From positions 5,022,001 through 5,086,000 of the forward strand of contig UGYN01000002.1 in the NCBI GenBank assembly GCA_900457075.1: a stretch of DNA of 64,000 nt, read 5' to 3'. Positions 9,737-41,022 of this stretch are shown in pieces (position 1 is the first letter of the stretch; each line of letters starts with the position of its first letter). The notes under the pieces are model-generated. The model was not told the DNA's origin and ran no database searches. It worked only from the letters and a program-made list of their open reading frames with translations. The DNA comes from Serratia quinivorans. GTDB taxonomy: Bacteria > Pseudomonadota > Gammaproteobacteria > Enterobacterales > Enterobacteriaceae. A program made the translations under genes and the position numbers.

Positions 9737-12349
9737 ATGACTAAGCGATTGAAAGTATTCATAGGGATTGTGGTGAGTGTGCTGATCCTGCTGGTGGCGC
9801 TGTGGCAAACTTTGCCGCGCTGGCTGCCGCGTGTGCTCTCGCACTGGTTACCGCAGGGCAGCCAGTTGGTTTTGCAGGGCAAACTACAGTGGCACCAGGG
9901 CGCCTTGCAGTTGGATGGCGCCCGCTTTTTAGCGCAAGACTGCCTGCTTGCCAGCGCCGGCCCAACCCGATTGGCTTATCAGCAAGGGCGTTGGCAACTG
10001 ATCGGCGACAAGCTGCATGTCGATACGGCCTGCCTATCAAAATTGCCTGCCGGTGATGCCAATAGCGCCCCCCTGGCGCTTGACCAACTGCAAAAACAAC
10101 TGCCGCTGCTGGATATCACCATTAAGGATCTCTCGGTGCTGCCGTGGCAATTCTATGCCGGTAAACTGCAGATACACGCCACCGCAGAAGGCCAGAGCCT
10201 GCAATATCAAGGTCCCAACGTCAGCGTTGACGCGCTGCTGGATCAACATCAACAACTGACGCTGAACAGCCTGACGCTCACCGCGCCCAACAGCCCGCAG
10301 CCGCTGCATCTGACCGGAAAAATCAGCATTCCGCTGGATTTGGACAGCATGCCGACGCAAGGCGCACTGCAGGGCGAACTGCAGACCGCTTATCTGGAAA
10401 AGCCTTTGCTGCTGGATATGCGCTGGCAACAGCAGCAGGGGGTGATGACGCTGACTGAAAAGGGGGCAGATAAACCCTTGGCCACCTTGCCGTGGGAGAT
10501 CAACCCGCAGCAGGTGAGTATCAAGCAGGGCGAGTGGCGCTGGCCGTACAGTCAGCAACCGCTTAACGGCGGCTTGAGCATCGCGCTGCATGACTGGAGC
10601 AAAGGCTTTGATGAAGCCCAGATCAGTGCCCGTTTAAATGTGATCACCGACGGCCACAACGGTAAGGGCAATGCGGTGTTGACGCTGGGGCCGGGTAAGG
10701 TCGGGCTAATCGACAGCGACTTACGCTTCCAACTGACCGGTCAGGCGAATATGGCCGATTTTTCCATGACCGCTTCCATCCCCGGTATCATCAGCGGCAC
10801 TATTCTTAACCCGACGCTGGTGTTGCAGTCAGGGGCACTGCTGCGTTTGTGGGGCAACGCCACACCGGAAATGAAACTGGAAGAGGCGCGGTTGCCGCTG
10901 GCCGGCGTGAAGGTCACCGCGGGCGGCATCACCGGCCGCCTGCAGGCGATCATCAATGCCAGCGACAGCTATTGGGGCCGTTTTAAACTGCATCTGGACG
11001 GCAAGGCCCAGGATTTTTGGCCGGATCACGGTAACTGGCAATGGCGCTATTGGGGTAACGGCCAGTTGCCGCCGCTACAGGCTGCCTGGGACGTCGCCGG
11101 CAGCGGCAGTTGGCAGGACAGCACTTTGGTGCTCGATCGCCTTTCTACCGGTTTTGATCAATTGAAATACAGCATGGTGACGGTAGACGCACCGCGTCTC
11201 AGTCTTAGCCAACCGCTGCGTTGGCAGCGTGACCAGCAGGCCCCGGCATTCAATGGCGAACTGCAGCTGGTTTCCGGCAAGGTTAGCTTCACCAACGGGG
11301 GTTACCTGCCGGCCCCGGTGCTGGCGCTGCAGCTCAAGGGCAAAGCGCCGGACAGCTTCCAGCTACAGGGCAAACTGCAGGCGGAACAGATTGGGCCGAT
11401 AGCACTGCGAGGCCGCTGGGACGGTGAGCGTTTGCGCGGAGAGGGCTGGTGGCCAAAACAGTCGCTGGAAGTGTTCCAACCCTTGATCTCACCCGATCTG
11501 AATATCAAACTGCGCGACGGCGAGTTTTATGCCCAGTCGGCCTTCTCTGCGGCCCGGGTACAGGGCTTTGAGGCCGGTGGCCACTGGGTGGTGAAAAACG
11601 GCGGCATGTGGCTGAAAGACGGCGAGATGAGCGGCCTGGACTTTGTGATGTCCTACCGACTGAAAAACCATCTCTGGCAGTTGGGGGCCAAAAAGCCAGT
11701 GATGTTACGCATCAGGTCATTCAGCAACCTGTTTGAAATGCAGAATATTACCGCCGATCTGCAGGGGACCTACCCGTACAGCGAACAGACACCGCTGACG
11801 CTGAGCAACGTTGGAATGGATGCATTAAACGGTCATATCAGCCTGTCGGCGCTGCGGATGCCGCAGCATGACGCTGCCGTATTGAAACTGGATAAAGTTG
11901 ATCTCAGCGCCTTGTTTACCGCGCTGAAGCCAAAACAGTTTGCCATGTCCGGGCGGGTGGACGGCGAACTGCCGCTGTATCTCAATCATCCCAAATGGCT
12001 GGTACGCAACGGTTGGATCGCCAACTCGGGCATGCTGACGCTGCGGCTGGACAAGGATATGGCCGATGCCATCGGCAGCAATAATCTGGCGACCGGCGCG
12101 GCGATCGACTGGCTGCGCTATATGGAGATTAACCGCTCGAAAGCCAGGGTTGATCTCGACAACCTCGGTGAGCTGACGCTGAAGGCGCGCATTGACGGGG
12201 TTAATCCGCAAAAAAGTACCAAACGAGAAGTTATCCTGAACTATAGCCATCAGGAAAACGTATTTCAGCTGTGGCGCAGTCTGCGCTTTGGCGACAATTT
12301 ACAGGAGTGGCTGGAACAGGCACTCTCAAAGAGTGGTAATAGTCAATAA
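9737..12349 (+). CDS. ydbH: AsmA-like intermembrane protein YdbH (3' end supplied by the prophage)
   Basis: Inner-membrane-anchored periplasmic protein; in E. coli YdbH pairs with the lipoprotein YnbE to form an intermembrane bridge for phospholipids, redundant with TamB and YhdP. The 870 residues start with one transmembrane helix (VFIGIVVSVLILLVALWQ). A long beta-rich AsmA/DUF3971-type region follows, with many short alternating hydrophobic strands. The C-terminus WLEQALSKSGNSQ is formed by prophage sequence. Reading through the right repeat instead would give ALSKPGEQP with the stop overlapping the ynbE start, probably the original end. About 390 bases upstream are non-coding apart from the candidate sRNA. 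Confidence 0.92.
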   Translation: MTKRLKVFIGIVVSVLILLVALWQTLPRWLPRVLSHWLPQGSQLVLQGKLQWHQGALQLDGARFLAQDCLLASAGPTRLAYQQGRWQLIGDKLHVDTACLSKLPAGDANSAPLALDQLQKQLPLLDITIKDLSVLPWQFYAGKLQIHATAEGQSLQYQGPNVSVDALLDQHQQLTLNSLTLTAPNSPQPLHLTGKISIPLDLDSMPTQGALQGELQTAYLEKPLLLDMRWQQQQGVMTLTEKGADKPLATLPWEINPQQVSIKQGEWRWPYSQQPLNGGLSIALHDWSKGFDEAQISARLNVITDGHNGKGNAVLTLGPGKVGLIDSDLRFQLTGQANMADFSMTASIPGIISGTILNPTLVLQSGALLRLWGNATPEMKLEEARLPLAGVKVTAGGITGRLQAIINASDSYWGRFKLHLDGKAQDFWPDHGNWQWRYWGNGQLPPLQAAWDVAGSGSWQDSTLVLDRLSTGFDQLKYSMVTVDAPRLSLSQPLRWQRDQQAPAFNGELQLVSGKVSFTNGGYLPAPVLALQLKGKAPDSFQLQGKLQAEQIGPIALRGRWDGERLRGEGWWPKQSLEVFQPLISPDLNIKLRDGEFYAQSAFSAARVQGFEAGGHWVVKNGGMWLKDGEMSGLDFVMSYRLKNHLWQLGAKKPVMLRIRSFSNLFEMQNITADLQGTYPYSEQTPLTLSNVGMDALNGHISLSALRMPQHDAAVLKLDKVDLSALFTALKPKQFAMSGRVDGELPLYLNHPKWLVRNGWIANSGMLTLRLDKDMADAIGSNNLATGAAIDWLRYMEINRSKARVDLDNLGELTLKARIDGVNPQKSTKREVILNYSHQENVFQLWRSLRFGDNLQEWLEQALSKSGNSQ
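12311..12330. repeat. attL, left attachment repeat in the ydbH 3' end
   Basis: The 20-base segment CTGGAACAGGC-A-CTCTCAAA matches 35482-35501 at all but one base (A here, C at the right end). It codes for LEQALSK in ydbH. Strand exchange therefore took place in the 11-base left block or the 8-base right block of identity. The prophage supplies a new stop codon 17 bases on. Confidence 0.88.
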
Positions 12350-13084: not shown

Positions 13085-13570
13085 GTGGCAACCAAAGCAA
13101 ACAAAATCAGGGCAGCGGCACGAAAGCGCCTTGCTAACCTGAATCAAAAACAGATTGAGGCCGAACAGACACGGTCTGCCAATCGAGAACTTCTGTTGAA
13201 TGCGCAAGACAGAGCGATGCTTGAGGATATGCGAGCACGCGGCTTTTGCGCACCTAAAGCACTTCCAACCGCCCGCCAATACGCACGGTATGCCGCATTC
13301 AGGAGCAGCCAGGCCGCTGCCAACCGCGCCGAAATCGTAGAACAGGAAACCGCCGTGTATGCCGCCAATGGCGGTGTTATGGATTTGGTCTTCGAACGTC
13401 TGCGCAGCCCCAAACTCAAGGACACGGCATTTGCTGCCCTGGCTCAGCTGGCACAAAAGGGCATGCAGCTGGCGCCGGTTCCTGTGGATGACAACCACGT
13501 CACCGAATCACCGTTACCTGATGAAGATGAGCTGGACGCTATCTCCGACGAACTCGGGGGTATCGAATGA
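13085..13570 (+). CDS. Terminase small subunit
   Basis: DNA-recognition component of the packaging motor, inferred mainly from its position before the large terminase. I choose the GTG at 13085 because GGAGG lies nine bases upstream; this gives 161 residues starting MATKANKIRAAARKR. The N-terminus is basic and could bind DNA. The middle is helical and Ala-rich, and the tail is acidic (PDEDELDAISDELGG), a usual region for contacting the large subunit. The stop overlaps the terL start by four bases (ATGA). Sequence similarity to a specific family is not recognised. Confidence 0.7.
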   Translation: MATKANKIRAAARKRLANLNQKQIEAEQTRSANRELLLNAQDRAMLEDMRARGFCAPKALPTARQYARYAAFRSSQAAANRAEIVEQETAVYAANGGVMDLVFERLRSPKLKDTAFAALAQLAQKGMQLAPVPVDDNHVTESPLPDEDELDAISDELGGIE

Positions 13571-15195
13571 TTACCACGCTGGAATACCGCAATAAGGTTC
13601 GCCAGAAGGCAACGCTTATTCGCGCTGCCGGCAAGGCAAAGATGCGCGAGCACTGGAATATCATCGAAGCAGCGTTGCAGTTCCACCGCTTTTACCGACT
13701 GGACTACTTCAAGCCCTACGACTACCAGTTCAAATGGTTTGAGTCGGGCATCTATGCCACGTTGCGCTATCTGTCTGCCGCTAACCAGATTGGTAAAACC
13801 TACGGTGGCGCCGTGGAAATGACTTACCACTTGACCGGTCTCTATCCTGACTGGTGGCCGGGACGTCATTTCGAGGTGACGGGCAAGGAGGTGTGCTGGG
13901 CAATGGGTGTAAGCCTGGAGTCCACGCGCAAGGTGTTGCAGAACTACCTGCTCGGCACGGATAACGCGAAGAAAACCCGTGAGTTCGGCAGTGGCACCAT
14001 CCCGCGGGAGATGATCCGTATGGAAACACTGGTTCGCGATGGCGAGCTAGTGAAGTCAATCTCAATCGATAACGCAGCGGGAGGTTACTGTGAGCTGTAT
14101 TTCTATGCGTCCACGCAATCGACGGATACTCTTCATGGCCAGAAAGTTTTATATATTTGGCTTGACGAGCAGCCGGACAACGAGCTGGAACTATCCAGTA
14201 TCTTTGCGGCACGAACTATTAATACCGGCGGCATTGTTGCCGTCACCGCCACACCGGAAAAGGGCGCTACAGACCTCTGGCGTCAGTGCAAGGAAGATAA
14301 CAGCCCGCACGTCCATTTTCAGTCAGCCACCTGGGACGACGCCCCGCACTTAAGCGAAGAAGCAAAAGACCGAATCCTTGCTGCCATCCCCTATCACGAA
14401 CGTGAAATGCGCTCCAAAGGCATTCCTGTTGCCGGCATTGGCGCCATCTATCCCTACCGCGACGACGACATCACCTGCGAACCGTTCGATATCCCCGACC
14501 ACTGGCTAGTCCTAGCTCCGCTGGACTTTGGTGTCAGCGGTAACCGTGACCCGTCAATCATCCTGTCCATGGCGTACGACCCGGATACCGGCGTGCGTTA
14601 CGTCTTTGCCGAGTGGTCAAGCGAGATGGACAAGAGTGTCTACGCCAACAGCTACATGCCTGACTTCATGGCGCACAAAATCATCGGCCAGAAGCCTGAC
14701 GACTGGGATGCGGTAACCCAATCCGCGCCGTTCGTCGGTATCGGTCTGCCTGGCATCGTGGTCAAGTCTCCGCATGATGGCGCAAACACCCAGCCCGGCA
14801 CCAACCAGACGCGATGCGAAATCATGCGTGACGTCGGCGCCAATGTTGACCCGCGTCTTTGGGAATTACCGCCTGATATGGCACCACTGGAAAAGAACCG
14901 CCGGTCGCTTGCCGGCTCGATTGCCATCGCTGCCAACCTGTTTCGGGATGGAAAGCTGAAGATTTTCACGACATGCACGGAAACGCTGCGGGAACGCCGG
15001 GGCTATCAGTGGATCAAGAAAGGGCAAAAGACCGTCCCCATCGACAAAGACAATCACTTCATGGATGCCATGCGCATCGGTGCTATCCGCATTAGCTACG
15101 ACGGCGAATACATGCAGGACGCACGTCAGCCGATCCCGAATAACACCGTTGACGGGAACCCCTACGAAACCGACATGGGAGCATACCACCTGTGA
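13567..15195 (+). CDS. Terminase large subunit (packaging ATPase/nuclease)
   Basis: Motor that cuts and translocates phage DNA into the prohead. The 542-residue protein has a Walker A-like motif SAANQIGKTYGGA (about residues 70-82) and a Walker B-like strand VLYIWLDEQPD (about 195-205). A VTATPEKG motif follows, and an RNase H-type nuclease domain begins APLDFGVSGNRDPS. The closing DNHFMDAMRIG stretch fits the last nuclease acid. Its start overlaps terS and its stop overlaps the portal start, each by four bases, indicating translational coupling. No indel is seen. Confidence 0.92.
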   Translation: MITTLEYRNKVRQKATLIRAAGKAKMREHWNIIEAALQFHRFYRLDYFKPYDYQFKWFESGIYATLRYLSAANQIGKTYGGAVEMTYHLTGLYPDWWPGRHFEVTGKEVCWAMGVSLESTRKVLQNYLLGTDNAKKTREFGSGTIPREMIRMETLVRDGELVKSISIDNAAGGYCELYFYASTQSTDTLHGQKVLYIWLDEQPDNELELSSIFAARTINTGGIVAVTATPEKGATDLWRQCKEDNSPHVHFQSATWDDAPHLSEEAKDRILAAIPYHEREMRSKGIPVAGIGAIYPYRDDDITCEPFDIPDHWLVLAPLDFGVSGNRDPSIILSMAYDPDTGVRYVFAEWSSEMDKSVYANSYMPDFMAHKIIGQKPDDWDAVTQSAPFVGIGLPGIVVKSPHDGANTQPGTNQTRCEIMRDVGANVDPRLWELPPDMAPLEKNRRSLAGSIAIAANLFRDGKLKIFTTCTETLRERRGYQWIKKGQKTVPIDKDNHFMDAMRIGAIRISYDGEYMQDARQPIPNNTVDGNPYETDMGAYHL

Positions 15196-17201
15196 ACCAG
15201 AGCGAACTGTTTACCGAGTTACAGAACAATTTCAACGCTGCCAAAGAGCAGCAGGACATGCTGGCCGATCGCTACAACAAGGCCTACATGATGTATCGCG
15301 GCGAACTGCCCGAGCGGCTCAAGCCTTCGGACTTGCCCGCTGACCGTGTGATGTGGAAGGCCTTCGAGAGCATTTATCCGGCCCTGGTGAAGCTGTTCAC
15401 CGACAACGACAAGTCGCCGGCGCGGTTCAACAGCGAGGGGATGGCGACGACAAAGGTTGCGCAGGCCGTCACTCAGGCTGTGCACACGGCAGCGATGGGG
15501 GTGAACAACGCCTACAAGCTGTACATGCAGGCGATTAAGGAAATCCTGATCACAGGCAACCAGGCGGTAATGGTCGGTTATGACAAAAAGACGTATGAGA
15601 CAGAGAAAGTCACTTTTACGGATGCATCCTTTGCGGCTATCGGCATCCATCAGAAGCTGCTGCAGCTGGGCGGCTATAACATCAAAAGCGAGATTGAGTT
15701 CAACGAGGAAAATCAGACCGGTACCGGCTGGATGCAGGGCGAAAGGGAGGTTAAATACCCGGTCATCAATTTAATCGACTTCAAGGATTTCTACCTCCAC
15801 CCCGACGCGATGGATGTGGAGTCATCGCGCTATGTCGCCTACACCGAAAAGCTGACTATTGGTGAGGCTGTTGAGCGCGGATACGGCCGGAACAAACTGT
15901 CCAGGGCTGATGACATTGATACCAATGCCGGCCGTGGCCTGAGCAAGAAAATGCTGGTGATTAACGACATGAACGGCAACGACGCCGTTACTGCTGACTC
16001 CGTGCTGTCTGACGACAATAGCGACATCACGCTGTATCACCATTTCTGGCGCGGCTGCTACGACAGCGACAAGCAGCAGCTGCATTACGTCATCGCCACG
16101 GATGTCGACATCGTCAGCCATACCTCGGTGGATTATGTCCCGATCGTCCTGGGCGGCATGAGCACCGTCACCGGCAGCGCCTGGAGCGAGTCTCTGTACG
16201 ACATCTGCGGCAGCGTGCAAATCAGCAAGACCCGCGCACTCCGCGCTATCCAGCGCAGCGCAGACAACGCTGCATACAGCGAATACCTGGTTAACGAGCA
16301 GCAGCTCACCCCGAAAGGGAAAGAGACGTTTTCAAAACGCGGGCCGGGCGCCGCTTACAGCGTCAAAGACCATTCCGCCATCACCAAGCTGCCGATCAAC
16401 GACGTCCCGCGTGCGATGGAACTGCTTAACAGCGAACTGACCAGCCAGGAAGAAACCACCATTCAGGGGAGTGCCGGCAAGGCGCAGGCGCTGGAAGAGA
16501 ACGGCCAGGCGTCAGGCGTGGCGGTGGCGCTGACGCAGGACAAACAGGAGCTGAACGAAAGCCAGATTGCATCCTGCATTGCCGAGACGTTCATCAAGCC
16601 GATGTACCGCATCCTGCTGCTCGTTCTCCAGGAAATGAGTAACGCCGTGGATATCGACGGCCAGCAGGTACCACTAAAAATGCTGCGCGCGGATATCGGT
16701 ATGACTATCGATATCGAAACGGCTTATGACCGCGCCAACGCCGCAACGAACCTCATGGCCATGCTGAACAGCGGCACTCAGGCGCAAACGCTGCCGGCCA
16801 ATGTGACCGACCAGAACCGGTATGAGATTTACCGGCTGTATGCCCAGGCTGCAACAGGGCAAAAGGACGTCTCCGCGTTCATCACACCACCAGACCAGAT
16901 GCCGAAACCGTCGAAACCGGAAGTGCTCGCCAGGGCGCTGCTGGCTGTCGCCCATCTTCGGAGCCAGGTTGCTGCGTGTGAGCTTGCGGAGGCCAGCGTT
17001 AACGACAAAAAAGCGGAGGCCCAGAAGAAGTGGAACGACGCTGCAAAAGACCTCGCGCAGATTGCCGAGATTGTGGCGGGTATTGAAGTCGACAAGCTGG
17101 AGTTGTTGCTGAAAGTCCAGCAGGAAAAAGCCGCTGAGGCTGATGCGGTGACGCAGAACGCCCAGAACCAAGAGCAAATCAACCAGGAGAGTAACTCGTG
17201 A
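15192..17201 (+). CDS. Portal (head-tail connector) protein
   Basis: Dodecameric ring at the capsid vertex through which DNA passes. The 669-residue size and the place between large terminase and scaffold fit podovirus portals. N-terminal residues (YNKAYMMYRGELPERL, WKAFESIYPALVKLF) and the region VALTQDKQELNESQIASCIAETFIKPMYR are typical portal features. A long C-terminal helical, Gln/Glu-rich segment may form the barrel or coiled coil. It starts with GTG in a GTGA overlap with terL and ends in a GTGA overlap with the next gene. Confidence 0.88.
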   Translation: MNQSELFTELQNNFNAAKEQQDMLADRYNKAYMMYRGELPERLKPSDLPADRVMWKAFESIYPALVKLFTDNDKSPARFNSEGMATTKVAQAVTQAVHTAAMGVNNAYKLYMQAIKEILITGNQAVMVGYDKKTYETEKVTFTDASFAAIGIHQKLLQLGGYNIKSEIEFNEENQTGTGWMQGEREVKYPVINLIDFKDFYLHPDAMDVESSRYVAYTEKLTIGEAVERGYGRNKLSRADDIDTNAGRGLSKKMLVINDMNGNDAVTADSVLSDDNSDITLYHHFWRGCYDSDKQQLHYVIATDVDIVSHTSVDYVPIVLGGMSTVTGSAWSESLYDICGSVQISKTRALRAIQRSADNAAYSEYLVNEQQLTPKGKETFSKRGPGAAYSVKDHSAITKLPINDVPRAMELLNSELTSQEETTIQGSAGKAQALEENGQASGVAVALTQDKQELNESQIASCIAETFIKPMYRILLLVLQEMSNAVDIDGQQVPLKMLRADIGMTIDIETAYDRANAATNLMAMLNSGTQAQTLPANVTDQNRYEIYRLYAQAATGQKDVSAFITPPDQMPKPSKPEVLARALLAVAHLRSQVAACELAEASVNDKKAEAQKKWNDAAKDLAQIAEIVAGIEVDKLELLLKVQQEKAAEADAVTQNAQNQEQINQESNS

Positions 17202-23041: not shown

Positions 23042-23131
23042 AGTAACATTTACAAATGATCGAATAAACGCGCTGTAAACATCTGATATCAACTCGAGGG
23101 CGGGATTGCCCCATGGGGAGGCCACCATGAC

Positions 23132-24085
23132 ATGGCTGAACTACATTCATACGAACTGATAGGCGTCAAAGAAGAAGTCGCAGATTGGATTTCTAACCTG
23201 GCACCGACCGAATACCCCTTTTCGGCGATGATCGGAAAGGCGAAAACTCACAACGCTATGTTCGAATGGCAGTACGACACCGACGCGCAACCGGACACGG
23301 ATAACGCGCTGATCGAGGGTACTGACTACGGAACGCTGGATGATTCCTTCACGCCCACGTCGATGCTCAAGGGCTACACCCAGATTCTGGCCAAGGTGAT
23401 CAAAGTCAACGGCACCACTGACGCCCAGGCAAACTGGGGGCGTGGTAAGGAATCCAACTACCAAACCAACAAAAAGAGTCGCGAGCTCAAGGCTGACCTT
23501 GAAGCGTCGTTCCTGCGCAACGGTAAAGCGCAACCGGAAGACAAGGCGGCAAAAGTCCCGCGCAAGTTGGGCGGCTATTTGTCCATGGTCTCCTCGACCG
23601 ATGGTGGCGACACTGTCGAAGGGGATCCGCTGACCGGCGCTGTCACGTTCAAGACGGCAGCAGGCGAAACGCCGACGGCTGAAGAGATTTTGGCGGTCAT
23701 GACACAAATGTGGAAGGCCGGGGGCCGCCCTGAAATCCTCATGTGTAACGAAACCATGAGCAGTGTTATCTCCGGCATGCAGGAGAACACATCCGGCTCG
23801 CGCGCTCGTCTCTTTGAAAACACCGAGAAAATCACCCTCGAAGTCAACACCATCACCGACCCGCTGGGGCAGACCGTCAAGGTGGTCTACAACCGCTACA
23901 TGCCGGATGACACCGTGTATATCTTCAACCCGGAAGACTGGCAGGAAATGGTGCTGCGTGCGCCACGTCATGAGCCGTTATCCAAGGTGGGCGACTTTGA
24001 GCGTGTGGCTATCGTGATGGAAGTGGGCCTGCGTCACCGTAACCCATGGGCCAGTGGCGCGGTTGTGGGAAAGCTAGCAGCTTAA
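23132..24085 (+). CDS. Major capsid protein (SU10/DUF5309-like)
   Basis: Main shell subunit, 317 residues. It resembles the SU10/DUF5309 coat family: N-terminal VKEEVADWISNLAPTEYPFSAMIG, a central KKSRELKADLEASFL helix, ILMCNETMSSVISGMQ, and the closing LRHRNPWASGAVVG. GGGGAGG lies nine bases before the ATG at 23132; an ATG at 23127 in another frame gives only ten codons. The zero-frame stop falls where this family normally ends. Just before it, G-GGA-AAG allows a -1 shift into a long extension (next entry). The gene is followed by a terminator at 24487, after the extension. Confidence 0.85.
   Translation: MAELHSYELIGVKEEVADWISNLAPTEYPFSAMIGKAKTHNAMFEWQYDTDAQPDTDNALIEGTDYGTLDDSFTPTSMLKGYTQILAKVIKVNGTTDAQANWGRGKESNYQTNKKSRELKADLEASFLRNGKAQPEDKAAKVPRKLGGYLSMVSSTDGGDTVEGDPLTGAVTFKTAAGETPTAEEILAVMTQMWKAGGRPEILMCNETMSSVISGMQENTSGSRARLFENTEKITLEVNTITDPLGQTVKVVYNRYMPDDTVYIFNPEDWQEMVLRAPRHEPLSKVGDFERVAIVMEVGLRHRNPWASGAVVGKLAA
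24067..24073 (+). promoter_or_regulatory. Slippery heptamer for -1 ribosomal frameshifting in the capsid gene
   Basis: GGGAAAG is phased as G-GGA-AAG in the capsid frame, exactly the X-XXY-YYZ form. It is the same heptamer used by phage lambda to make gpGT from gpG. It stands four codons before the capsid stop. Only a weak 4-bp stem (ACTG/CAGT, 24085/24098) is visible downstream, and no upstream anti-SD stimulator. Confidence 0.7.
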
Positions 24086-24483
24086 CTGACGCCGGAGCAG
24101 TCCAGATAAGCGTAGATAACGAGACGTGGGATACGGCCTTTCCGGCCGGGTTCCTCGTCGCTGGCTCCGAAACAGAGTTCTGGATACGTGTAGACCCTGA
24201 GTCACTTGTCGAACCGGACGACGGTACGTACGAGTATGACTTCAGTGTCAACCAGGCAGCTGGTGGTTTGTCGCTGTACAACGTCGACCACAACCTGGCA
24301 CACGTCACGGGCACCACGCAGGCAGACCAGGCAGGGTTGGAGCTCGATGTCATGTGTAAGGTAACTGACAGCTCCGGCACGTTAGCGCTTTCCGGTTCTG
24401 TTAATGGCACGTGGGGCGAACCTGAAGTGCAACAGGGTGAACCTGAAGAGCAACAGAGCAAAAAATCCAAATCAACCAAATAA
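24073..24483 (+). CDS. C-terminal extension of the capsid protein reached by -1 frameshift (Ig-like decoration domain)
   Basis: The frame one base behind the capsid frame stays open for 136 codons after the slippery site, giving a 450-residue fusion. The added part is beta-rich (ISVDNETWDTAFPAGF, TEFWIRVDPESL, YEYDFSVNQAAGG, VMCKVTDSSGTLALSG), like an immunoglobulin-type head-decoration domain. It ends in an acidic-to-basic tail (EPEEQQSKKSKSTK). There is no ribosome site for a separate start; the only nearby ATG (24046) lies inside the capsid gene without SD. T7 makes gp10B in the same manner. It could instead be a separate protein or a one-base sequencing deletion, but most indels in this window are insertions, which would give the other frame. 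Confidence 0.65.
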   Translation, partial: ASSLTDAGAVQISVDNETWDTAFPAGFLVAGSETEFWIRVDPESLVEPDDGTYEYDFSVNQAAGGLSLYNVDHNLAHVTGTTQADQAGLELDVMCKVTDSSGTLALSGSVNGTWGEPEVQQGEPEEQQSKKSKSTK

Positions 24484-24486
24484 CGC

Positions 24487-24510
24487 AAGCCCCTTAACTG
24501 GGGCTTTTTT
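24487..24510 (+). terminator. Intrinsic terminator after the capsid gene
   Basis: Stem AAGCCCC / GGGGCTT with a 6-base loop is followed by TTTT. It lies just beyond the stop of the frameshift extension. Confidence 0.85.
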
Positions 24511-24812: not shown

Positions 24813-25406
24813 ATGTCAACAACCTACAACAAACTGATCGCCGATATTCGGCTTTATTCCGGCCGCACGGACACGGAAGTGGTGGTGGCCATCCCGCAGT
24901 TTGTCGCTGCCGCCCAGGCAAAGCTGGATAGCGAGCTGCGTATTGCCGAGATGATCGGCACGCAAACCATCAAGGCGTCCACGCTGACCATCACTCCGGC
25001 GGATGTACTGGAGCTGATTAGCGTCATCACCGGGGATTACGAAGCGCACCAGACCACGCTGGCGGAGGTGCTGCGTATGCGCGGGTTTAACATTAACCCA
25101 TCGCATCACGTGTTCGCGATGAACGGTAAGAACATCGAGCTTATCACCCCCACTGACGTAACCATCACCGCCTTCCAGACGCCGCCACGCATCAACAAGG
25201 ACAAACAGACCAACGCCTACACCGACGGCGCAGAGAATGCCCTGCTGTGGCTGGCGCTGTCTTATCTCGGCGTCTTTGCACGTGATGTCGAGATGACGCA
25301 GTCCTGGGCGCAGTTGGCGAGTAACGAGATTGAACGCCTTAACAACAGCTACCAGGCGTACGCCGTCAGTGGCGCCATCCAGGAGCATAACAATGAGTAC
25401 TTCTGA
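24813..25406 (+). CDS. Head-tail adaptor (tail tubular A-like) protein
   Basis: A 197-residue protein of the kind that docks beneath the portal in short-tailed phages. It is mostly helical: YNKLIADIRLYSGRTDTEVV, then VAAAQAKLDSELRIAEMIG, then a beta segment, then AENALLWLALSYLGVFARDVEMTQSW and ASNEIERLNNSYQAYAV. This layout, with a terminal helix pair carrying NNSYQ-like residues, matches podovirus adaptors. It sits directly after the head genes and before tail genes. Its stop overlaps the next gene by 14 bases. Confidence 0.65.
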   Translation: MSTTYNKLIADIRLYSGRTDTEVVVAIPQFVAAAQAKLDSELRIAEMIGTQTIKASTLTITPADVLELISVITGDYEAHQTTLAEVLRMRGFNINPSHHVFAMNGKNIELITPTDVTITAFQTPPRINKDKQTNAYTDGAENALLWLALSYLGVFARDVEMTQSWAQLASNEIERLNNSYQAYAVSGAIQEHNNEYF

Positions 25407-34103: not shown

Positions 34104-34126
34104 AGCCGGCGTCACAGCCGGTTTAG
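34104..34126. terminator. Hairpin between convergent alpA-like gene and integrase
   Basis: CCGGC-gtcaca-GCCGG stem overlapping the 3' end of the integrase gene, with a TTTAGTTTATT stretch after it on the plus strand. It is a plausible terminator for the phage early/lysis genes. Confidence 0.5.
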
Positions 34127-35323
34127 TTTATTCTCCCACGCCTCAAGCCCCTGCCGCTTCTCTCTGATGTAATCGTACCGGTCATAATGCTTTGACGAGA
34201 CCCCGGGGCGCTTGTGGTTCTGGATGCGGTCGCGCAGCTCGATGCTGAGTCCCATATCGCCGGCGAGGGTTTTAAATGTGCGTCGGATGTCGCGTGGCGT
34301 GAATGGCTCCAGGTCGTAGTCGTAACAAAAATCCTTGATGACCCGCGAGTAGTGTCCTGTATTGCGTAGGCTATCAGGACGGCGGGGTGAGGGGAAAAGG
34401 TGCTCCGACTTATGGCTGTTTAGCTGCTCGGTGACAAAATACCAGGCTGTATCGGTAAGCGGTACCACATGCCAGTTAAGCGACTTGGACAGTTCGGGCG
34501 GAATGGACAGCGTCCTGTCTCGTTCTACGACACTCCTCCGATAATTTTTGATGATTTCCCACGGCCGCTGGCCGCCGGTGTACAGAGAAATCATGAACAG
34601 TCGTTCCAGGTCGCGCGGCATGCCCGACGCCCCGGATTTTATTATCGTCAGTATCTTGGCCAACTCATCCCAGGACAAAAAGCGGTCAAGCGCCCTGTCG
34701 GCGCCAGGCTGGTCTGGTATGGCTGACACGGGGTTCATTGTCATACCGTACCGTTGCGGTTTGTCGACGCTCATTGGGTCGTTGTCCGCATGCAGTCCGA
34801 AATTGAATGCGGCATGCATAACGGCGCGTAGCTTGCTTGCGCCACCAATCGCCCCGCGGCGTATCATGTCACTCAGTACCAGCCTGATTTGGTGTGTCGT
34901 GACGTCCTTGGCCGGCGTTTTGGCGTTGATATGGCCGCAGGTCAATACGCCGTTCAACCGCCGCTCACTGAGTGCCCACGCCCGCTTACCCCGTATTTTC
35001 TGGTTGCTGATGTAGTCTGCAAACAGGTCACCCACACTGGCATAGCCAAATATGATGGCGCCGCCGTTCTGGAGGCTGGCCATTGCTGCCCGTGCCTTGT
35101 CCTGGGCAACCGAAAGTGTGATTTGCGGATAATCACCGATGCGCTCAAACCTTGCCTTTCCCCCTGCAAAGTAGCGGTAAACAAACACCCGACGGCCAGA
35201 AGGGTAAACCTTCACGCCCAAGCGTCCGGTTCCACGCGTGGCAGCGGCGTGCCACACGTAGTAAGCTGATGCTTTGGGCTTGAGCCCCTTAATTTTTGTG
35301 TCGGTCAATAAAATATTTGGCAT
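34112..35323 (-). CDS. int: Tyrosine integrase (P4-type, with Arm-binding domain)
   Basis: Recombinase that inserts and removes the prophage at ydbH. The 403 residues have an N-terminal DUF4102-type arm-binding domain (LTDTKIKGLKPKASAYYVWH, then GVKVYPSGRRVFVYRYFAGG), a core-binding domain, and a catalytic domain. Visible catalytic residues are Arg in LYTGGQRPWEI, the RDIRRTF box (the usual His replaced by Arg-Asp-Ile context), and Tyr near KHYDRYDYIRE. It lies 160 bases from attR and reads inward, towards the alpA-like gene. No frameshift. Confidence 0.92.
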   Translation of the reverse strand: MPNILLTDTKIKGLKPKASAYYVWHAAATRGTGRLGVKVYPSGRRVFVYRYFAGGKARFERIGDYPQITLSVAQDKARAAMASLQNGGAIIFGYASVGDLFADYISNQKIRGKRAWALSERRLNGVLTCGHINAKTPAKDVTTHQIRLVLSDMIRRGAIGGASKLRAVMHAAFNFGLHADNDPMSVDKPQRYGMTMNPVSAIPDQPGADRALDRFLSWDELAKILTIIKSGASGMPRDLERLFMISLYTGGQRPWEIIKNYRRSVVERDRTLSIPPELSKSLNWHVVPLTDTAWYFVTEQLNSHKSEHLFPSPRRPDSLRNTGHYSRVIKDFCYDYDLEPFTPRDIRRTFKTLAGDMGLSIELRDRIQNHKRPGVSSKHYDRYDYIREKRQGLEAWENKLNRL

Positions 35324-36880: not shown

Positions 36881-37134
36881 TTAAGACAGTGACATCAGGA
36901 CGGTGCGTCCCTTGCATGCAGTACACTCTATTCACATTTTTCCAGCAGTGATAGCGCAATATTTCGAGACCTTTGTTCGATTTTATTGAATAACCTTTTG
37001 GGCCTTAAGCGGCGGGATTATGGGGAAAAAGCGGCTTGTGATATTCTTCGCGTCCAAAGCTAAAAACGGGCTAACCCATTACCAAACCGTTGCTAACGCT
37101 TGATACAGCAGCGATGAAACAAGGAATACCGAAC

Positions 37135-40100
37135 GTGAAATCTCCGCTCGCGGCATTGTCTGCCCAACTGGGCGAGCTGATGCTCCGTGATCAACAGCGC
37201 CTGCAACGTCGGCTGCAGGGCGCACGAAAAATCAAAAATCCCGATGCTCAATTGGCGGCTGCCGTTGAAATCGAAAGTGACATGGCGCTGGCGTTGCGTA
37301 AGGTGCAATCCCGCGCTGCGACCTGCCCGAAAATAACCTATCCGGAAAAACCTGCCGGTCAGCCAGAAAAAGCAGGATATTCTGCAGGCGATCCGTGACC
37401 ATCAGGTGGTGATTGTTGCCGGTGAAACCGGCTCGGGGAAAACCACCCAGTTGCCGAAGATCTGCCTGGAATTGGGGCGCGGGGTCAAAGGGCTGATCGG
37501 TCATACCCAGCCTCGACGCCTGGCCGCGCGCACCGTGGCCAACCGCATTGCCGACGAACTGGAAACCCCATTGGGCGGCAGCGTCGGTTATAAGGTACGT
37601 TTTAACGATCAGGTCGGGGAAAATACCCTGGTCAAGCTGATGACCGACGGCATCCTGCTGGCGGAAATCCAGCAGGACCGACTGTTGATGCAGTACGACA
37701 CGCTGATTATCGATGAGGCGCATGAACGCAGCCTGAACATCGATTTTATCCTCGGCTACCTGCGCGAACTGCTACCGAAGCGCCCCGATCTGAAAGTCAT
37801 CATCACCTCGGCAACCATAGATCCGCAGCGGTTTTCACGTCACTTCAACAACGCGCCGATTATTGAAGTTTCCGGCCGGACTTATCCGGTGGAAGTCCGT
37901 TACCGCCCGGTGGTGGACGACGCCGACGATACCGACCGCGATCAACTGCAGGCGATTTTCGATGCGGTGGACGAACTTGGCCGCGAAGGGCCGGGGGATA
38001 TCCTGATCTTTATGAGCGGTGAGCGCGAAATCCGTGATACCGCTGATGCATTGAATCGCCTCAATCTGCCACATACCGAAGTCTTGCCGCTGTATGCCCG
38101 GCTGTCCAACAGCGAACAGAACCGGGTATTTCAGTCACACCACGGGCGGCGCATTGTGCTGGCCACCAACGTGGCGGAAACCTCATTAACCGTACCGGGC
38201 ATCAAGTATGTGATTGATCCGGGGACGGCGCGTATCAGCCGCTACAGCTTCCGTACCAAGGTACAGCGACTGCCGATCGAGCCGGTGTCTCAGCCTCGGC
38301 CAACCAGCGTAAGGGCCGCTGCGGCCGTGTGTCGGACGGTATTTGTATTCGCCTGTATGCGGAACAGGATTTCCTGTCGCGACCGGAGTTTACCGATCCG
38401 GAGATCCTGCGCACCAACCTGGCATCGGTGATTTTGCAGATGACCTCGCTCGGGCTGGGCGACATCGCCGCATTCCCGTTCGTGGAAGCGCCGGACAAAC
38501 GCAATATTCTGGATGGCGTGCGTCTGCTGGAAGAATTGGGGGCGATTAAAACGGCAGACAATGGCCACTACCAGCTCACCGCGCAGGGCCGTCAATTGGC
38601 ACAGTTGCCGATCGACCCACGCCTGGCGCGTATGGTGCTGGAAGCGCAGAAGAGCGGTAGCGTGCGCGAGGTGATGATTATCACCGCGGCGTTGTCGATT
38701 CAGGATCCGCGTGAACGGCCAATGGACAAACAGCAGGCGTCGGATGAAAAGCACCGTCGCTTCGCGGATAAAGACTCGGACTTCCTGGCCTACGTGAACC
38801 TGTGGGACTGGCTGAAAGAGCAGCAAAAAGAGCATTCCTCCAGCCAGTTCCGTCGGCTGTGCCGCAATGATTTCCTGAACTACCTGCGGGTGCGCGAATG
38901 GCAGGATATTTACACCCAACTGCGTCAGGTGGTGAAAGAGCTGGGGCTGCCGGTTAACAGCGAGCCTTCCGATTACCGCAGCGTACATACCGCACTGCTG
39001 ACCGGCTTGCTGTCGCACATCGGTCAGAAAGATGTCGACAAGCAGGAGTTCACCGGTGCTCGCAATGCGCGTTTCTCCATCTTCCCGGGTTCCGGCCTGT
39101 TCAAGAAGCCGCCGAAGTGGACCATGGTGGCCGAACTGGTGGAAACCAGCCGCCTGTGGGGGCGTATTGCCGCTCGTATTGAGCCGGAATGGATAGAACC
39201 GCTGGCTCAGCATCTGGTGAAGCACAGCTACAGCGAACCCCACTGGTCCAAATCCCAGGGGGCGGTGATGGCCAGCGAAAAGGTAACGCTGTTCGGGTTG
39301 CCGATCGTTGCCGCGCGCTCGGTCAATTACAGCACCATTGATCCGCTGCTGTGCCGTGAGCTGTTTATCCGCCATGCGTTGGTGGAAGGCGACTGGCAGA
39401 CGCGACATGCGTTCTTTGCCGCTAACCTGAAACTGCGTGCCGAAGTGGAAGAGCTGGAACATAAATCGCGTCGCCGTGACATTCTGGTGGACGACGAAAC
39501 CCTGTTTGCTTTCTACGATCAGCGCATTCCGAACGATGTGGTGTCTGGACGCCATTTCGATAACTGGTGGAAAAACGTCGGTAAGCAAAATTCAGACCTG
39601 CTCAGCTTTGAAAAAGAAATGCTGATCAAAGACGGTGCCAATCAGGTCAGTGCGCTGGACTACCCAAACACCTGGTACCAGGGCAACCTCAAACTGCGCC
39701 TGACTTACCAGTTTGAACCGGGCACCGACGCCGATGGCGTGACGGTACACATTCCGCTGCCTATCCTTAATCAGGTAGAGCAGCAGGGCTTTGAATGGCA
39801 GATCCCGGGCATTCGTCGGGAACTGATCATTGCCCTGATCAAGTCCTTGCCGAAGCCGGTACGCCGCAACTTTGTGCCGGCACCGAACTACGCCGAAGCT
39901 TTCCTGGGGCGGGCGACGCCGCTGGAGATGCCGCTGCTGGATTCACTGGAGCGCGAGCTGCGTCGCATGACTGGTGTGACGGTGTCACGTGAAGACTGGC
40001 AATGGGATCAGGTGCCCGATCACCTCAAGATGACATTCCGGGTGGTGGGTGAAAAACACAAAACCCTGCTTGAAGGCAAAGATCTGACGGCATTGAAGCT

Positions 40101-41022
40101 CAAGCTGAAGGACAAGGTGCAGGAAACGCTGTCGGCGGTGGCGGACGATGGGCTGGAACAAAGCAATCTGCATATCTGGAGCTTCGGCAAACTGCCGGAG
40201 TTTTATGAGCAGAAACGCGGTGGCTATTCGATGAAGGCCTACCCGGCGCTGGTGGACGAAAAAGACAGCGTGGCGATCCGCCTGTTCGACAGCGAGCAGG
40301 AGCAGCGACAGGCGATGTGGCAGGGCACGCGCCGCCTGCTGTTGTTGAATATTCCTTCACCTATCAAATATCTGCATGAAAAACTGCCGAACAAGGCCAA
40401 GCTGGGGCTGTACTTTAACCCTTACGGCAGGGTGCTGGATCTGATCGACGATTGCATTTCGTGCGGCATCGATAAACTGATCGCCGAACACGGCGGGCCG
40501 GTGTGGCAGGAGGAAAACTTTGCCCGTCTGCAGGAGCTGGTGCGCGGCGAACTGAATGAAACGGTGGTGGGCGTAGCCAAACAGGTCGAACAAATCCTGA
40601 CGGCGGTGTTTAACATCAACAAGCGCTTGAAAGGCCGGGTTGATATCTCGTTGGCGCTGGCACTGTCAGATATCAAAACTCAGCTCGGCGCTCTGGTTTA
40701 TCGTGGGTTCGTCACCAACAACGGCTGGAAGCGCCTGCCGGATACGCTACGTTATCTGCAGGCGATTGAACGTCGGTTGGAGAAACTGGCTATCGATCCG
40801 CACCGCGACCGAGCGCAAATGCTACGGGTGGAACAGGTGCAGCAGGCCTGGCAGCAATGGCTGAACAAACTGCCGCCGAAACGCCAGCAGGATGACGAGG
40901 TGAAAGAGGTGCGCTGGATGATTGAAGAGCTGCGCGTCAGCCTGTTCGCTCAGCAATTGGGCACGCCTTATCCGATCTCGGACAAGCGTATCCTGCAGAC
41001 TATCGAGCAGCTTTCAGTGTAA
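37135..41022 (+). CDS. hrpA: ATP-dependent RNA helicase HrpA (two one-base frameshifts as written)
   Basis: DEAH-box helicase; E. coli HrpA acts on mRNA processing and helps resolve collided ribosomes. Restored length is 1295 residues (E. coli 1300). The sequence shows [11 protein letters not shown] (Walker A), [11 protein letters not shown] (DEAH), [25 protein letters not shown] and the long C-terminal HrpA domain. One extra A in the A5 run near 37348 and one missing G near 38297 (CAGCC for CAGGCC) break the frame; both corrections restore exact E. coli-like sequence. I prefer the GTG at 37135 (AAGGA nine bases upstream); ATG 37114 is possible. Likely functional, errors likely technical. Confidence 0.92.

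Follow-up and report, generated by a model that had tools for sequence, protein, structure and literature searches.

A prophage coat gene of Serratia quinivorans with a conserved slippery site and a predicted Ig-like extension in the -1 frame

The window analysed here, the whole stretch of 64,000 nucleotides, is chromosomal, covers positions 5022001-5086000 of its contig and includes a prophage flanked by two host genes, one of the YdbH family (9737-12349) and an hrpA-like gene (37406-41022), with at most about 24 kb between them. On the forward strand the prophage encodes the large subunit of a terminase (13567-15195; PF03237, E = 5.7e-17), an SU10-type portal protein (15192-17201; PF23899, E = 7.5e-52) and an SU10-type adaptor protein (24813-25406; PF24175, E = 4e-13); the coat gene shares a block with the portal and adaptor genes. 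The presence of a tyrosine integrase on the reverse strand (34112-35323; PF00589 and PF13356; phrog_1 integrase, E = 2.9e-39) identifies the phage as an integrated prophage. It falls outside the Kuravirus-like (phiEco32-like) phages when these are delimited as lytic with genomes of at least 67 kb. The prophage of the window (about 12.5-35.4 kb) and four contigs of about 22-24 kb (L124, L126, L127, L128) represent a clade of small prophages with SU10-type coats; in the phage collection, the genomes of their near relatives reach at least 67 kb.

The coat gene (23132-24085, forward strand) encodes in its zero frame a major capsid protein of 317 residues from the SU10_MCP family (profile search against PF17236, E = 7.5e-70, 236.2 bits with a curated cut-off of 24.1; phrog_1328, major head protein, E = 1.2e-76). 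A Shine-Dalgarno-like GGGGAGG (23115-23121, forward strand, by eye) stands 10 nt 5' of its ATG. Towards the 3' end the codons read GTG GGA AAG CTA GCA GCT TAA: the slippery heptamer G GGA AAG (24067-24073, forward strand) lies in phase, three sense codons separate it from the stop, and the TAA (24083-24085) ends the short coat. No stop interrupts the -1 frame between the heptamer and a TAA at 24481-24483, which gives 136 codons after the slip and a slipped product of 450 residues. The heptamer, the length of the extension and the sizes of both products had all been read in this way in the original prediction, and the sequence and its frames confirm them. Going 5' from the zero-frame stop, only 40 nt of the -1 frame contain no stop, and its single internal ATG is at 24046. 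We saw by eye no Shine-Dalgarno sequence 5' of this ATG, in agreement with the earlier claim that the extension has no ribosome site of its own, and no Shine-Dalgarno-like element 5' of the heptamer. Bare GGGAAAG is common in the window (9 copies, with 8.6 expected from shuffling), so the signal resides in its position and phase: the junction is an in-phase X XXY YYZ site within the overlap of both frames. A terminator-like stem, AAGCCCC/GGGGCTT with a T run (24487-24510, forward strand, by eye), follows the -1 stop and not the stop of the short coat, and the annotated terminators of the phages Privateer and Paul are likewise placed after the -1 stop.

The extension (24067-24483, forward strand) encodes an Ig-like domain and a Lys-rich tail. 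Its residues 8-116 match phrog_18016 (E = 3.1e-12), a family to which no function is assigned, and it is 76% identical to the protein P0002. An Ig-like fold had been proposed from the letters alone; the AlphaFold2 model (mean pLDDT 87.3) agrees with this and confidently predicts an Ig-like beta sandwich, while the model made from the single sequence was poor (mean pLDDT 50). One PDB structure was matched at E < 0.001 in a Foldseek search of the model, and we class the domain as Ig-like without naming a subfamily; a profile search of the Ig alignment against solved structures gave two matches (E = 0.3 and 0.63), neither of them convincing. Two annotated fragments from Klebsiella aerogenes (P0003, P0004) contain two tandem Ig repeats of the same family and a Lys-rich tail; they are probably mis-started pieces of a longer extension.

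A separate genome (G016) encodes a coat 96% identical to that of the window and retains the heptamer, the TAA stop and the open -1 frame. The frame thus lacks stops across 136 codons in the window and 129 codons in G016, two diverged genomes, and the sole indel between their extensions is an in-frame deletion of 21 nt in G016. The dN/dS ratio between them is 0.12 for the coat. For the extension, reading the -1 frame gives 0.49, and the two remaining frames give 0.86 and 1.19; changes in the extension number 11, 15 and 21 at the three codon positions. The extension is under purifying selection, though of modest strength. The coat of an IMG/VR contig (L001) is 100% identical to that of the window; it probably comes from the same strain and is thus no independent evidence. 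Among 392 genomes of the family, three match the coat and three the Ig domain, the genome of the window being included in each count, and among 394 genomes of the order the coat profile matched only the window's own genome. Searches of the genome contig collection with the coat and with the Ig alignment gave no match, the extension was not found in plasmids, and the DNA of the cassette described below was not found in E. coli genomes.

We studied the distribution of slippery sites in a set of coat genes, in which 107 entries were reduced to 95 distinct genes, window included, by removing duplicates over the last 150 nt; three rows without a stop (L014, L017, L021) were left out. Of the 570 in-phase positions offered by the final six codons, 12 are strict X XXY YYZ heptamers, against 10 of 30,035 in the gene bodies (Fisher p = 8e-16, a value inflated by relatedness, as the genes are not phylogenetically independent). 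One of the ten body heptamers is the junction site of a relative with swapped frames (L095, see below). The -1 extension has at least 100 codons in 11 of the 12 genes with a terminal heptamer and 40 codons in the twelfth (L019, AAAAAAG). A -1 open reading frame of at least 80 codons also occurs in 25 coat genes whose final six codons include no strict heptamer; a Pfam scan of ten of these identified Ig-like domains in two (L015 and phage LAh_6) and found no Ig domain in the other eight. In L015 and L114 (Aeromonas phage LAh_6), the Ig-like -1 extensions follow an imperfect GGTAAAG at the 3' end of the coat. Escherichia phage PJNS034 (L111, 2501-3795) has CCCAAAA one codon 5' of the coat stop and an Ig-like -1 extension, the fusion being unannotated. 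Codon 293 of one of the three coat genes in the L019 contig falls at a strict CCCTTTC, possibly near another junction between coat and extension.

Within the prophage clade, a strict in-phase heptamer is found at the coat-Ig junction in all eight coats that could be scored, seven of them with a -1 Ig domain and one (L095) with the frames swapped; a ninth relative (L014) reaches the contig end before the junction and was left unscored. The conservation of extension and heptamer among relatives, which the original prediction had proposed to examine, is therefore observed, and the absence of the heptamer together with a separate start for the second frame, which it had named as evidence against itself, was found in none of the eight. 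The slip site is GGGAAAG in the window and G016, CCCAAAG in L095 and L128, CCCAAAA in L124 and CCCTTTC in L096, L126 and L127, in each case directly after the last conserved motif of the coat, HRN(P/M)W(A/S)S. The encoded residue pair varies accordingly (GK, PK or PF). These four versions of the heptamer, with their varying residues, indicate that it is the slippery class that is kept and not the residues. Pairwise coat identity is at least 57% among seven of the clade coats, and 75% between L128 and L095. The coat gene of L128 (from 2501) is broken by a frame change 5' of its intact CCCAAAG junction. The Ig domains behind these sites are of the phrog_18016 type in the window, G016, L096 and L095, and of the He_PIG type in L126 and L127 and, below the curated cut-off, in L124. 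At the protein level, back-translation of the -1 frames of P0019 and P0024 points to CCCAAAG, and P0032 and P0039 carry PK and GK, respectively, at the junction.

The swapped relative (L095, 2541-3929) encodes the Ig domain in the zero frame, as a protein of 462 residues, and retains C CCA AAG in phase at the junction. Here a ribosome that slipped would finish in PKADSGGGTF and produce the short coat, with the roles of the two frames opposite to those in the window. The dnaX gene is a known case in which frameshifting yields the short product, and slippage would yield the short form in both. A hairpin begins about 4 nt 3' of the heptamer of L095, with a fold z-score of only -1.03. P0032, from a different contig, is an in-frame fusion like L095. 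Coat and an Ig domain of the same family occur as one in-frame protein in L095, P0020, P0032, P0039 and gene 9 of phage APT65, which indicates that the fusion is a real type of product.

Other phages encode a longer coat without a change of frame. Salmonella phage 7-11, Cronobacter phage GAP52 and Aeromonas phages BUCT695 and APT65 each have at least two coat genes, and one of these encodes a longer coat within a single frame. They resemble the window in their coat family and in having a C-terminally longer form, the Ig domain of APT65 being of the same family; unlike in the window, where a frameshift is proposed, the long form comes from an in-frame paralogue. We found no strict heptamer near the junctions of these four phages in the codons scanned. 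An extra, longer coat gene may thus be an alternative route to a shell of two forms. Aeromonas phage APT65 (L003, 1672-5866) has four tandem coat paralogues, the fourth of which continues in frame into the Ig domain.

The RNA 3' of the slip site may contribute a stimulatory structure. In the window a putative three-way junction (24074-24164, forward strand) has its first hairpin 6 nt after the heptamer, with a minimum free energy fold z-score of -1.95. G016 folds into the same three-armed shape (-1.22), and the best fold of L094, a contig with the same Ig domain on another gene, keeps two arms and loses the closing stem. In an alignment of the three sequences, 4 of 35 pairs persist with both partners substituted, and 4 are disrupted in one sequence. 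Among the other loci of the frameshift type, the scores are -3.54 for L094 and G041 (identical to each other over the folded 98 nt), -3.30 for L096, -2.21 for phiEco32, -1.37 for Privateer, -5.32 for PJNS034 (the strongest), -0.93 for L124, -2.67 for L126 and -0.10 for L127; for L124 and L127 the fold is no better than those of shuffled sequences. The loci with the Ig domain in frame (L095, -1.03; APT65, 0.74; phiEap-2, -0.15) overlap with this group. The element is a possible stimulator, a candidate predicted from sequence whose structure is not common to all relatives.

The original prediction had invoked lambda and T7 as precedents; lambda gpG/gpGT uses the same heptamer, in a tail assembly chaperone and not in a coat. 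As proposed for the window, T7 gp10A/10B and T3 gene 10 produce a minor coat by -1 frameshifting at the 3' end of the coat gene, in T3 with an Ig-like extension, as described in a review (PMC5009743); their coats belong to another family and the T7 site is of an imperfect G_GU type (PMC5009743). The closest precedents lie instead within the same capsid family, in Paul and Privateer. The record of phage Paul carries the annotation 'Frameshift at GGGAAAG'. Phages phiEco32, Paul, YF01 and SU10 (Gordonclarkvirinae) share with the window the PF17236 coat, GGGAAAG and an Ig-like -1 extension, and in phiEco32 and Paul the heptamer is 3-4 codons from the stop. They are themselves lytic, with genomes of about 67-80 kb and extensions of the Big_2 type; the window differs in being an integrated prophage, in its phrog_18016-type Ig domain and in its coat, which is about 40% identical to theirs. 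Frameshifting at GGGAAAG in this coat family is reported for YF01 (PMC9965538), and that of the phiEco32 coat is published, as cited in papers on its relatives. For SU10, two coat forms with proteomic support were described in 2014 (PMC4281155); this is contested, since a cryo-EM study saw no density of the minor capsid protein (PMC9509320), and the YF01 paper finds a -1 stop soon after the SU10 heptamer (PMC9965538). The Proteus phage Privateer has the same coat family and a frameshift at GGGAAAG, its long coat having been detected by mass spectrometry (PMC7881722); unlike in the window, its heptamer abuts the stop (0 codons) and its extension combines I-set and Big_2 domains. Both G_GGA_AAG and C_CCA_AAG are described as highly shift-prone in E. 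coli in the review (PMC5009743). The locus in the window is a prophage-borne addition to this already published mechanism.

We therefore regard it as very probable that the gene makes two coats by programmed -1 ribosomal frameshifting, with a minority long form in the shell whose extension would be shown on the outside. The anatomy of the locus, the phase of the heptamer, the predicted fold, the conservation of the slip site and the relatives with coat and Ig domain in one protein are what we observe, and the steps built on them are these. Most ribosomes would read through G GGA AAG and end at the TAA at 24083-24085, producing the coat of 317 residues. A minority would slip one base back on the heptamer and add 136 codons, producing a coat of 450 residues whose C-terminal part is an Ig-like domain. 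This long form would enter the virion at a minority of the positions of the shell and display this domain outside, where it would probably bind weakly to sugars or proteins of the cell surface or the environment. The earlier reading of the locus is thus supported, the slippage itself being deduced from the DNA.

The change of frame could also stem from an indel, an assembly error or a mutation of this strain, that broke a single in-frame coat-Ig gene. In-frame fusions do exist in relatives, and indels do occur in the window: the host helicase gene (37090-41022), which we take to be hrpA from its Pfam domains, is split over frames. Compared with two intact copies from congeners, both open across 1315 codons, it has a +1 change and a -1 change, and it reflects either assembly errors or a broken gene. 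The argument of the original prediction that an artefact is less likely because indels in the window mostly shift the frame one way fails on this gene. Its conclusion holds on other grounds: G016 shares the register, the stop and the heptamer, which refutes an indel unless both assemblies share one error, the slip site is kept in L096, L124, L126, L127 and L128 in the -1 arrangement and in L095 with the frames swapped, and lytic relatives have the same arrangement, with the long product detected by mass spectrometry in Privateer (PMC7881722) and in the disputed case of SU10 (PMC4281155). We consider such an indel extremely improbable, and give equally little credence to the idea that the -1 frame is a decaying, untranslated remnant. 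The latter would fit the faster evolution of the extension compared with the coat (the dN/dS of 0.49 and 0.12 above), but a remnant is hard to reconcile with frames that stay free of stops over 136 codons in the window and 129 in the diverged G016, a 21-nt deletion that preserves the frame, 76% protein identity to P0002 and a confidently predicted fold.

Translation of the extension apart from the coat, from the ATG at 24046 by coupling, would make it a free decoration protein. Gene callers picked such internal starts in P0002, P0019, P0024 and P0031, and relatives of the domain occur free-standing (K4PH164, P0040, P0048). Against this, the ATG has no visible Shine-Dalgarno sequence ahead of it, and the ATG or GTG at this place falls within the codons of the conserved PWA motif, which makes its conservation a by-product. 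Where the same domain follows a cement gene (L094, G041), the first start in the -1 frame is a GTG (L094, 3546) that lies past the first conserved strand. A separate start also leaves the conservation of the heptamer across four sequences unexplained. We judge it very unlikely, if marginally less so than the indel or the remnant, and retain programmed frameshifting as the explanation of the locus.

The Ig domain of the window also occurs outside coat genes. In a metagenomic phage contig (L094, 2992-3854) and in a whole genome from the window's own family (G041; L110), it occupies the -1 frame of a cement gene in an unrelated phage; the cement protein, a structural one, matches PF22758 (E = 4.7e-10 in L094), and an unrelated coat gene (PF09950) comes next in both. 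In the window, BLASTN similarity to this cassette starts with the heptamer, at 24067, and extends over 252-266 columns with 68% identity. From AAAG onward, zero-frame stop included, 26 of 29 bases agree between the window and G041 and 28 of 29 between G016 and G041, and of the 63 bases 5' of the cassette just 16-17 agree, which is the chance level. The slip site of the cement gene, G GCA AAG, is not strict, and the agreement of the heptamers at their first two matching bases may for this reason be fortuitous. The cassette is missing from relatives of the cement protein (L133, 91%; L134, 80%), suggesting a gain by the cement gene. Atkins et al. already pass on, in the review (PMC5009743), the idea that it is a matter of chance whether a mobile Ig domain ends up in frame or out of it; here, in contrast, the moving unit also includes part of the slip site and the stop. 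Slip site and Ig domain look like an exchangeable unit. We propose tentatively, giving it a little less than an even chance, that the slip site acts as a recombination hinge: a portable cassette made of the 3' part of the heptamer, a short zero-frame tail, the stop and the -1 Ig domain would move between unrelated virion genes, coats would swap Ig families behind a slip site that is kept, and selection would act on the mixture of two forms and not on the frame. The full-text literature searched, most of it non-subscription, yielded no description of the turnover of slip sites, of a coat with swapped frames or of the cassette in a cement gene.

The clade is a natural experiment, with four versions of the slip site without loss of slipperiness and one swapped member. 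The comparison set adds phages in which a further, longer coat gene takes the place of the frameshift, together with one cement gene, unrelated to the coats, that bears the cassette. Together they make it testable why Ig domains are placed on only some of the subunits of a capsid, and how such domains spread.
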